From Burkholderia lata (lineage in GTDB: Bacteria; Pseudomonadota; Gammaproteobacteria; Burkholderiales; Burkholderiaceae), in assembly GCF_000012945.1 (NCBI RefSeq), contig NC_007510.1, positions 620,001-684,000 of the forward strand: a DNA stretch of 64,000 bases, given 5' to 3'. Within the stretch, counting starts at the first letter, position 1, and every line of letters begins with the position of its first letter. Below are positions 39,584 to 42,406 of the stretch, one piece after another. The notes under the pieces were generated by a model. That model worked only from the letters and a program-made list of their open reading frames with translations, did no database searches and had not been told where the DNA came from. The translations under genes were made by a program, and so were the position numbers.

Positions 39584-39997
<414 letters not shown>

Positions 39998-40008
39998 GTT
40001 CGAATGCG

Positions 40009-40081: not shown

Positions 40082-40504
40082 TCAGGCGGCGACGATGTCG
40101 AACGAATGCGTGAGTTCGGCCGTCTTCGCGATCATGATCGACGCGGAGCAATACTTGTCGTGCGACAGGTTGATCGCGCGCTCGACCGTGGACGGGTTCA
40201 GGTTGCGCCCGGTGACGGTGAAGTGGAAGTGCACCTTCGTGAATACCTTCGGATCTTCGCTCGCGCGCTCGGCCTTCAGCGTGACCGAGCAGCCGCTGAC
40301 TTCCTGGCGGCTCTTCTTCAGGATCAGCACGACGTCATAGGCCGTGCAGCCGCCGGTGCCGAGCAGCACCATTTCCATCGGGCGCGGCGCGAGGTTGTGG
40401 CCGCCGCCTTCGGGCGCGCCATCCATCGTGACGAGGTGGCCGCTGCCGGTCTCGGCGGAAAACGCCATGCCGTCCTGGCCCATCCAGCTTACTTTGCATT
40501 CCAT
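40082..40504 (-). CDS. OsmC family protein
   Basis: A 140-residue OsmC/YhfA-type protein, usually a thiol peroxidase acting on organic hydroperoxides. The two redox cysteines are seen at about Cys53 (LLGTGGCTAYD) and Cys119 (SHDKYCSAS). RPMEMVLLG and the C-terminal helix match the family. ATG 40504 (MECKVSWMG) gives the usual length; the frame is open to 40546. A terminal stop lies just after the rnpB terminator, so the two genes converge. Confidence 0.88.
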   Translation of the reverse strand: MECKVSWMGQDGMAFSAETGSGHLVTMDGAPEGGGHNLAPRPMEMVLLGTGGCTAYDVVLILKKSRQEVSGCSVTLKAERASEDPKVFTKVHFHFTVTGRNLNPSTVERAINLSHDKYCSASIMIAKTAELTHSFDIVAA

Positions 40505-40784
40505 GCTTGCACTCCAGCGTTGCCTGATTCGGATTCGATCCGGCATTGTAGCCCGCTGAGCAACGGTCGGCTGATGCGCTGCACGACGCGTAATGCCGGA
40601 GCCGCGCGAGCCGCGTGCCGGACGGCCAATTCCCGCTCGAATTTAGGGGTTTTGCTCTAGAAGAGGGCGGTTTCTGACCCCGTCATACGGTATCAGGTGT
40701 TTGATTTTAAAGGGGAAACCAATTTTTCAAACGGGTTTCCTTAAATTCCGCATTATGGTGTTTGATTTCGCAATGCAAATTTTC
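40505..40784. other. Gap between osmC-type gene and small RNA promoter
   Basis: No gene is supported here. The last 100 bases (about 40690-40790) are AT-rich for this genome and lead into the small RNA promoter. Confidence 0.4.
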
Positions 40785-40813
40785 TTGTGGAGTCGGCGAC
40801 GCGTTCGTATAAT
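40785..40813 (+). promoter_or_regulatory. Sigma-70 promoter of the small RNA
   Basis: TTGTGG (40785-40790), a 17-base spacer, then a consensus TATAAT (40808-40813). A start site near 40820 would be expected. Confidence 0.7.
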
Positions 40814-40819
40814 GAGCCT

Positions 40820-40911
40820 CATTGGTTGTCGCGCTGCGGCAACCTCCGAATGTCTCCTCCACCCTCCTCCTATGGTGGATTAAGCCCGAACCAGCCGTTC
40901 GGGCTTTTTTT
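40820..40911 (+). ncRNA. Candidate trans-acting small RNA with anti-Shine-Dalgarno loop
   Basis: A stand-alone transcription unit of about 92 nt. Stem 1 is GGTTGTCGC/GCGGCAACC (40824-40832 with 40836-40844, one G-U pair). Stem 2 is TCCACC/GGTGGA (40858-40863 with 40874-40879), displaying the loop CTCCTCCTAT (40864-40873), which is complementary to AGGAGG ribosome binding sites. The terminator AAGCCCGAAC/GTTCGGGCTT (40882-40891 with 40897-40906) ends in a T-run. No ORF of note is inside. The layout resembles anti-SD-loop RNAs such as the Cuckoo RNAs of Rhodobacter and double-hairpin RNAs of Burkholderia. Identity to a named RNA could not be checked. Confidence 0.8.
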
Positions 40912-40956
40912 CGTCCCATGCAAACATCGGCGCGCGGCTTGCGCGCCCCGGCATCG

Positions 40957-41262
40957 TTACACCGGTTGCTTGGCGGCCGGCTGCGATGTCGCGCCGGGCA
41001 GCGTGCCGGGCGAGCGTGCATCAGGTGCCGGCGCGTGGACGGCCGACGCATGGCCGTGCCCGCGTGCGCAGAAATGACGGACGCGTTCGCGCACCGCGCG
41101 CAGGCGGGCGACGCGATCCTCGGCGTGGGCGGCGCGGGCTTCGGCAATGCGTGTATCGAGTGCGTCGAGCTTGGCTTCGCAGTCGGCGCGGGCGGCGACG
41201 GCAGGCGCCGCGGCGGCCAGCAGCGCGGCCGTGAGGAAGGGCGTAAGTCGTTGATTCATCAT
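40957..41262 (-). CDS. DUF1090 (YqjC-like) small periplasmic protein
   Basis: A 101-residue exported protein. The signal peptide spans about residues 1-27 (MMNQRLTPFLTAALLAAAAP ... ARA). The mature part has the YqjC/DUF1090 pattern: Cys28, LDALDTRIAEARAAHAEDRV with a short heptad helix, RLRAVRERVRHFC with a second Cys at about 65. The tail is Ala/Pro-rich. Start may be either of two adjacent ATGs. Function is unknown; relatives respond to envelope or oxidative stress in some bacteria. Confidence 0.72.
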   Translation of the reverse strand: MMNQRLTPFLTAALLAAAAPAVAARADCEAKLDALDTRIAEARAAHAEDRVARLRAVRERVRHFCARGHGHASAVHAPAPDARSPGTLPGATSQPAAKQPV

Positions 41263-41422: not shown

Positions 41423-41452
41423 TTGACCGCGTTGCCGTATTTCCTTTATAAT
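41423..41452 (+). promoter_or_regulatory. Promoter of rplM-rpsI
   Basis: TTGACC (41423-41428), an 18-base spacer and TATAAT (41447-41452) make the best promoter in the window. The predicted leader to rplM is about 115 nt. Confidence 0.8.
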
Positions 41453-41573: not shown

Positions 41574-42002
41574 ATGAAGACGTTTTCCGCAAAAGCCCAT
41601 GAGGTGACGCGCGAATGGTACGTGATTGACGCGACGGATAAGGTTCTCGGCCGTGTTGCCAGCGAAGTGGCACGCCGTCTGCGCGGCAAGCACAAGCCTG
41701 AGTTCACCCCGCACGTCGACACTGGTGATTTCATCATCATCATCAACGCAAGCAAGTTGAAGGTCACGGGCAACAAGACTCTGGACAAGAAGTACTACCG
41801 TCACTCGGGTTACCCGGGCGGTATCTATGAAACGACGTTCGGCAAGATGCAAGAACGCTTCCCGGGCCGTGCGCTCGAGAAAGCGGTCAAGGGCATGCTG
41901 CCGAAGGGCCCGCTCGGCTACGCGATGATCAAGAAGCTGAAGGTCTACGCTGAAGCTACGCATCCGCATTCGGCTCAACAGCCGAAGGCGCTCGAGATCT
42001 AA
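41574..42002 (+). CDS. rplM: 50S ribosomal protein L13
   Basis: A 142-residue L13 of the large subunit. Signatures are [19 protein letters not shown] (about 13-31), [19 protein letters not shown] (about 34-52), the YRHSGYPGG turn (about 75-83) and [12 protein letters not shown] (about 104-115). Codon usage is the less extreme, highly expressed type. It is co-transcribed with rpsI, 11 bases downstream. Confidence 0.98.
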
Positions 42003-42013
42003 GGGGAGCCCAC

Positions 42014-42406
42014 ATGATCGGTAACTGGAACTACGGTACGGGCCGCCGCAAGAGCGCAGTCGCACGTGTCTTCATCAAGGCTGGCAAGGGCGACATCATC
42101 GTCAACGGCAAGCCCATCGCTGACTACTTCTCGCGCGAAACGTCGCTGATGATCGTGCGTCAACCGCTGGAACTCACGAACCACGGCCAGACGTTCGACA
42201 TCAAGGTCAACGTCAACGGCGGCGGCGAAACGGGTCAGGCAGGTGCAGTGCGCCACGGTATCACCCGTGCACTGATCGACTACGATGCGACGCTGAAGCC
42301 GTCGCTGTCGAGCGCAGGCTTCGTCACGCGCGATGCACGTGAAGTCGAGCGTAAGAAGGTTGGTCTGCGCAAGGCACGCCGCGCAAAGCAGTTCTCGAAG
42401 CGTTAA
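42014..42406 (+). CDS. rpsI: 30S ribosomal protein S9
   Basis: A 130-residue S9 of the small subunit. The typical start [13 protein letters not shown], the [15 protein letters not shown] segment (about 70-84) and the Arg/Lys-rich C-terminus ending QFSKR, which reaches the P-site tRNA, are all present. Second gene of the universal rplM-rpsI operon, closed by a strong terminator. Confidence 0.98.

Follow-up and report, generated by a model that had tools for sequence, protein, structure and literature searches.

A very likely ncS27 orthologue, an RF02278 double-hairpin small RNA with two anti-Shine-Dalgarno tracts, beside osmC in Burkholderia lata

The locus and its predicted transcript

The window analysed here is a stretch of 64,000 nucleotides (nt) of Burkholderia lata DNA (RefSeq assembly GCF_000012945.1, contig NC_007510.1, positions 620,001 to 684,000 of the forward strand), and the element under study is a plus-strand small RNA of the ncS27 type. 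It lies between the gene of an OsmC family protein and a DUF1090-like gene, both on the minus strand. A first-pass annotation of this DNA had described a free-standing RNA of about 92 nt with two hairpins and a terminator between these two genes, and both the RNA and its neighbours are found where it placed them (Table 1). The 92-nt stretch folds at -38.3 kcal/mol, compared with a mean of -21.9 for shuffled versions (z -5.5), and none of 200 shuffles came as low.

The start of the predicted RNA is set by the position of the -10 element, which a spacer of 17 bases separates from TTGTGG. The promoter had been called a consensus one, which holds for TATAAT only: TTGTGG agrees with TTGACA at 3 of 6 positions, and a promoter scan of the window does not have this promoter in its list. 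In the predicted fold, the anti-Shine-Dalgarno (anti-SD) stem pairs 40858-40863 with 40874-40879 and, as had been claimed, exposes the loop CTCCTCCTAT (40864-40873), whose unpaired probability is 0.957. A second CU tract, UGUCUCC, had been overlooked; it forms the 5' end of the part that matches Rfam family RF02278 and is predicted to be unpaired with a mean probability of 0.90 in the full RNA and 0.99 in the short form.

Table 1. Features of the small RNA locus and its surroundings (positions in the window)
Feature	Position	Strand	Basis or remark
Palindrome IR1, TTCCGCATTATGGTG	40746..40760	+	predicted regulator site, centre at about -67
Palindrome IR2, TTTCGCAATGCAAAT	40766..40780	+	predicted regulator site, centre at about -47; 20 bp from IR1
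-35 element TTGTGG (weak)	40785-40790	+	TTGT kept in at least 95% and the next G in at least 70% of 64 distinct genus sequences
-10 element TATAAT	40808-40813	+	kept in at least 95% of 64 distinct genus sequences
ncS27-type small RNA, predicted primary transcript of 92 nt	40820..40911	+	fold, RF02278, published ncS27 length
5' hairpin GGTTGTCGC/GCGGCAACC	40824..40844	+	covariation support
Site 1, UGUCUCCUCC, complement of GGAGGAGACA	40851..40860	+	first 7 bases unpaired; site enrichment
RF02278 match, near the likely processed double-hairpin form	40851..40912	+	processing published for ncS27/S17, here by analogy
Anti-SD stem-loop TCCACC-CTCCTCCTAT-GGTGGA	40858..40879	+	predicted fold, conservation
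Intrinsic terminator, hairpin and T run	40882..40911	+	predicted fold; 3 of 9 pairs changed on both sides among 76 orthologues
OsmC family protein gene, divergent neighbour	40085..40504	-	NF008009, 149.7 bits against a cut-off of 138
DUF1090-like gene, neighbour only in part of the genus	40960..41262	-	23.6 bits, just under the Pfam cut-off of 24.4
rplM (ribosomal protein L13)	41574..42002	+	TIGR01066, 205.7 bits; frequent downstream neighbour
rpsI	42014-42406		follows rplM

Family identity and conservation

RF02278 (Betaproteobacteria toxic small RNA) matches the RNA over all its model positions (1-64 of 64) with 74.6 bits against a gathering threshold of 50 (E 9.8e-15), and the predicted fold has the double hairpin with CU-rich unpaired stretches complementary to ribosome-binding sites that marks the family. 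By this match the RNA is an already known small RNA, and the label "unannotated" given to it has to be withdrawn. The word "toxic" in the family name reportedly goes back to Kimelman et al. 2012. Four RF02278 copies lie above the cut-off in the B. lata genome (match lengths 60, 68, 62 and 59), among 23 matches of all strengths.

Among the RNAs that Sass et al. 2017 (PMC5688073) report from B. cenocepacia J2315, ncS03, ncS05, ncS27 and ncS62 are assigned to RF02278 and called "double-hairpin RNAs". In their text ncS27 has 92 nt, -37.8 kcal/mol, z -5.1 and a processing site that gives a short form, and the lengths of ncS03, ncS05 and ncS62 are 59, 67 and 57 nt, similar to the match lengths of the B. 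lata copies. In J2315, BCAL3348a and BCAL3349 flank ncS27, which is encoded on the complement strand, and the orientations are -> <- -> (PMC4603805); the order <- -> <- in the window is their mirror image, the two neighbourhoods being compared by orientation. The J2315 RNA is located on chromosome 1, complement 3666557-3666648. The two RNAs are thus alike in family, length, minimum free energy, z-score, neighbour orientation, the number of copies (about four) and a 5' extension before the double hairpin that brings the total to about 92 nt (start taken from the -10 element); they differ in that ncS27 comes from another strain and the window RNA is known from sequence alone. Length, fold, family and neighbour orientation make it very likely, by strong inference, that the window RNA is the ncS27 orthologue; the first-pass annotation was right in likening it to NcS27. 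An RF02278 RNA of B. cenocepacia is called bdhR1 in PMC11722255, in whose text its identity with ncS27 is left unstated. For Herbaspirillum seropedicae, four RF02278 RNAs are listed (PMC7011215).

Two further places in the B. lata genome resemble the family more distantly. At C3:249358-249422 (L007:1501-1565, minus strand), a diverged double-hairpin candidate scores 28.1 bits, below the RF02278 cut-off, with CGUCUCCUCC at its 5' end, an altered loop, a strong terminator and z -5.2; it is possibly an unlisted relative. The other, at C3:499898-499966 (L005:1501-1569), is just under the cut-off at 42.5 bits and folds more poorly (z -2.5). Two order genomes, G289 and G337, have 9 and 8 RF02278 matches at E <=0.001, some of them a few hundred bases apart.

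From promoter to terminator the locus spans 136 bases; this stretch is matched over at least 94 bases in all 65 genus genomes and, at E <=1e-4, in 192 of 249 family genomes, where the match often covers the RNA part alone. RF02278 is above its cut-off in 41 of 41 genus genomes and reaches E <=0.001 in 99 of 150 order genomes, 59 of these above the cut-off. The 205 loci used for comparison were found through the string CTCCTCCA, and a pattern that includes the core selected the named loci (at least 120), so the invariance of the core is partly due to selection. The 125 genus and family loci yielded 79 distinct sequences in which an ATYGRT motif precedes the core by no more than 60 bases; 76 of them were aligned, and L138, L148 and L190, with misplaced start points, were left out. 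The motif is absent from 16 of 60 family loci, which are not in the alignment, so that the 5' hairpin was tested only where the motif exists.

Across the 76 orthologues, 95.0% of cells are paired when the structure is taken as a whole, compared with 92.5% after shuffling and no more than 42.7% for slid versions. In the 5' hairpin, 6 of 9 pairs are changed on both sides, in 28 cells (shuffled means 3.5 and 6.5), in shuffles that take no account of relatedness among the sequences; 5 of 500 shuffles reach the pair count and none the cell count, and slid versions give at most 4 pairs and 15 cells. In contrast, RNAalifold does not call the 5' hairpin on the same alignment. The anti-SD stem is nearly invariant, with one cell changed on both sides, a figure reached by 27 of 500 shuffles, and the bases after CTCCTCC in its loop drift. 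What is conserved in this stem is its sequence, which is expected if the arm itself is a pairing site; covariation does not prove the stem. The annotation had looked to covarying stems around an invariant loop as its check, and the covariation was found instead in the 5' hairpin.

Other RNA families share traits with the window RNA. S17/S17S of Bordetella pertussis is alike in its 5' CU core and its processed short form, and differs in its 190-nt precursor, its place between a glycosyltransferase gene and coq7, and its enhancement by BvgA (PMC11722255). The same preprint gives a 27-nt core as 100% conserved across species of Burkholderiales and other Betaproteobacteria, with two mismatches between S17 and the B. 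cenocepacia RNA; the window core differs from that of a Bordetella locus (L218) by one base over the span from CTCCTCCA to GGATT. NmsRA/NmsRB of Neisseria meningitidis also have two anti-SD motifs and metabolic targets, but they are tandem siblings with tricarboxylic acid cycle targets, whereas the window has one copy; its score against RF02877 (NmsRb) is 24.3 bits with a gathering threshold of 52. The anti-hemB RNA (RF02837) of Burkholderia has a CU-rich loop and, in the alignment, a similar terminator, and the score is 25.2 bits against 49.5, so neither family takes in the RNA. The CcsR/Cuckoo RNAs of Rhodobacter have a CU-rich anti-SD loop and are matured by RNase E. The likeness to them drawn by the annotation holds for the motif; the Rhodobacter RNAs share a transcript with a DUF1127 gene, made from an RpoH promoter, whereas the genes adjoining the window RNA are the OsmC and DUF1090-like ones, both on the opposite strand, with no DUF1127 neighbour. 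None of the 12 Rfam matches at the locus is named Cuckoo, though Rfam was not checked for a Cuckoo model.

Predicted targets, upstream palindromes and gene neighbourhood

The 5' end of the RNA is complementary to GGAGGAGACA, a sequence found 1-10 bases ahead of an ATG at 19 places in the B. lata genome, compared with 3 places for the permuted control GGAGGAGCAA and 2 for GGAGGAGAAC; there is no overlap between these 19 and the 23 RF02278 matches. Read from best Pfam/NCBIfam matches, several of them under their equivalog cut-off and in classes without a background rate, 15 of the 19 sites belong to transport or catabolism genes. They comprise MFS transporters (L320, L323, L325, L331, L336), a lactate permease (L326), a TonB receptor (L322), porin or outer-membrane proteins (L321, L333 and, presumably, the PF13557 protein L337), an aldehyde dehydrogenase (L319), an acyl-CoA ligase (L324), a CoA transferase (L327), an amidohydrolase (L328) and an HpaG-type enzyme (L330). 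The others are a fatty-acid desaturase (L329), an IclR-type regulator (L332) and two genes without a family (L334, L335). Pairing of the CU tracts with ribosome-binding sites is predicted in PMC5688073 and PMC11722255; GGAGGAGA does not occur in the main text of either, nor GGAGACA in that of PMC11722255.

Upstream of the -35 element lie two 15-bp palindromes with the consensus TTTCRCAWTRYGAAA, 20 bp from start to start. Loci were scanned with TTTCRCAWTGYGAAA (at least 11 of 15 positions, within 200 bases; mononucleotide shuffles as control). Of the 65 genus loci, 64 have at least one palindrome and 35 at least two; of the 60 family loci, 57 have at least one and 45 at least two (at least one in 5.8 shuffled loci in each case); among the matches listed, 44 of 76 named loci (76 of 80 loci were used) have at least one (shuffled 9.4) and 18 at least two. 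Palindrome centres at about -47 and -67 from the start assumed here would fit an activator, and the conservation of the palindromes suggests that the promoter depends on one. Across the B. lata genome, the palindrome occurs at 4 places, each with one mismatch (control 0), and IR2 has 12 matches with at most 2 mismatches (control 1). When 11 of these 12 were checked (IR2 and 10 others), the only other place with a second good site nearby was the region upstream of the isocitrate lyase gene (aceA), with TTTTGCAATGCAAAA and TTCCACAATACGAAA starting 63 bp apart (L317/L343, C3:684350-684427). A regulator common to the small RNA and aceA is hinted at, as a lead and not a result. In a supplementary figure, Sass et al. 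(PMC5688073) point to an upstream motif that three homologues share; this motif may be the -35 element or the palindrome pair. The terms "palindrom-" and "inverted repeat" are absent from the main texts of PMC5688073 and PMC11722255, and "palindrom-" from that of PMC4603805; no wider search of the motif literature was made.

Two other repeats were observed near the promoter. The 12-base sequence GGTGTTTGATTT occurs as an exact direct repeat at 40696-40707 and 40757-40768 (spacing 61); its downstream copy overlaps the two palindromes and their spacer, and its upstream copy lies in weakly conserved sequence. Of the 115 named loci with enough flank, among the matches listed (L195-L314), 39 carry an element TTGCRWYGCA in the 200 bases before the core. 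A similar stretch is seen in the promoter of the paralogue L002 and at the -35 of other family loci, and it is degenerate in the window.

The gene neighbourhood was counted with loci that end at a contig or flank edge scored as lacking the gene, and on 120 named loci among the matches listed, Burkholderiales and Rhodocyclales included (a first synteny count used 80). Upstream of the RNA there is a divergent osmC in 65 of 65 genus, 57 of 60 family and 94 of 120 named loci, and rplM lies downstream on the same strand in 42 of 65 genus loci (35 of the 65 are only 1 kb long), 55 of 60 family and 77 of 120 named loci. In J2315, BCAL3348 is presumably rplM. The DUF1090 gene adjoins the RNA in 51 of 65 genus, 0 of 60 family and 4 of 120 named loci, and the link to it was dropped because of the last two counts. 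The annotation had read this neighbour as a hint of stress regulation; published targets and the site list point instead to the uptake and catabolism of carbon sources. The words osmC and rplM are absent from the main texts of PMC5688073, PMC11722255, PMC7011215, PMC10175445 and PMC4603805, and the depth of this synteny may be undescribed so far. Between an amidohydrolase-family gene and osmC, the window also carries an RNase P RNA gene (39587-39998; RF00010, 293.7 bits).

Mode of action and competing explanations

What is published on relatives gives the mechanism its outline. S17 of B. pertussis is processed by RNase E and enhanced by Hfq, and it represses BP2158 via Site 1, as compensatory mutations indicate (PMC11722255, preprint). 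In S17, Site 1 is formed by the 5' end and Site 2 by the first loop; these correspond to the two CU tracts of the window RNA. The annotation had the RNA cover ribosome-binding sites, which is right in outline and agrees with these S17 experiments. Overexpression of ncS27 attenuates growth and an antisense RNA has the opposite effect (PMC5688073); according to a review, attenuation appears on several substrates and not on others, and genes of phenylalanine and tyrosine catabolism are affected (PMC10987360). A transposon screen of B. cenocepacia H111 has ncS27 and ncS03 among the loci that affect fitness (PMC12013268). Transcription and processing (ncS27, S17), Hfq and Site 1 repression (S17), and growth attenuation (ncS27) are thus taken from relatives, and the window copy would act as they do, by analogy.

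We consider it highly probable that the locus encodes an ncS27 orthologue that is trimmed and represses carbon-uptake and catabolism mRNAs by occluding their ribosome-binding sites. What was computed here for this reading is the family match, predicted fold, conservation, position, promoter palindromes and excess of target complements before ATG. Trimming would yield a double-hairpin form of about 60 nt, in which the CU-rich 5' end UGUCUCCUCC and the loop CUCCUCC would pair with ribosome-binding sites and so repress these mRNAs. The 5' hairpin may shield or tune the primary transcript before trimming, and a predicted activator would bind the two upstream palindromes. Taken as a whole, the interpretation given by the first-pass annotation is partly supported.

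Support from other genomes is moderate, and several points weigh against this repressor reading. In 150 order genomes, conservative target-to-control counts are 119:54 in the 59 with RF02278 above the cut-off (own genome included) and 51:49 in the 51 without a match, a difference with Fisher p 0.018 when the own genome is left out (100:51 vs 51:49). But the per-genome Mann-Whitney test is not significant (p 0.38; 0.44 without the own genome), there is no excess in the 40 genomes with weak RF02278 matches (29:49), and the sole control across the 150 genomes is GGAGGAGCAA. For these counts, nine hits that were self-overlaps or duplicates, in eight genomes, were taken out manually; where the hits of a genome were unlisted, the number of RF02278 matches was subtracted. 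Paralogues above the cut-off share UGUCUCCUCC, so the 19 sites are not assignable to the window copy alone. Furthermore, S17 had no effect on two candidates, BP0442 and BP1445 (PMC11722255), the transcript in B. lata is at present a prediction from its sequence, and the orthology to the J2315 RNA was drawn from length, fold, family and neighbour orientation.

An improbable alternative is that the RNA is a general translation poison, a mimic of the anti-Shine-Dalgarno end of 16S rRNA that blocks ribosome binding on many mRNAs indiscriminately. The Rfam name "toxic" suits it, as do a legend in PMC5688073, which traces the name of the RF02278 RNAs to inhibited growth of E. coli, and the growth attenuation by overexpressed ncS27 in the same paper. 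Yet later growth in E. coli is impaired only modestly (PMC11722255), the attenuation by ncS27 depends on the substrate (PMC10987360), and the excess of sites is specific for the extension ACA beyond GGAGGAG (19 vs 3 and 2). Still less probable is a cis element, with the RNA serving the rplM-rpsI operon downstream as a terminated leader or an attenuator. This reading draws on the presence of rplM on the same strand in 55 of 60 family loci, at a distance of 208-983 nt from the core, but was rejected since the small RNA has its own terminator, a separate promoter-like site (TTGACC-18-TATAAT, 41423-41452) precedes rplM, and the opposite-strand DUF1090-like gene intervenes in B. lata. Moreover, 43 of 120 named loci among the matches listed keep the RNA without rplM in the examined flank, and paralogues are located elsewhere in the genome. 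As for a short coding gene, the frame from the ATG at 40850 (ATG TCT CCT CCA ...) is open in the window, and S17 has a putative open reading frame of 32 residues (PMC11722255). We give this reading next to no chance, and rejected it, because a one-base gap in the near-invariant core (column 48) shifts the frame in 12 of 76 orthologues; in others the ATG is GTG, CTG, TTG or GCG.

Beyond the repressor reading lies a wider proposal, which we regard as speculative and unlikely in full: that ncS27 is the RNA arm of a carbon-source switch, in which a dedicated activator, acting at the palindromes and also on the isocitrate lyase gene, would switch on the RNA, the RNA would then shut the regulon marked by GGAGGAGACA at ribosome-binding sites, and the anti-SD module would have stood beside osmC, often with rplM, since the early Betaproteobacteria. 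That regulon would consist of transporters of aromatic and organic acids, porins, ring-catabolism enzymes and an IclR-type regulator.

The RNA itself is already known and needs only annotation, and the value of following it up lies in its promoter palindromes, synteny and target code. The conserved operator pair could name the signal that controls anti-SD RNAs, and the short target code, GGAGGAGACA ahead of an ATG, offers a regulon that can be tested directly.
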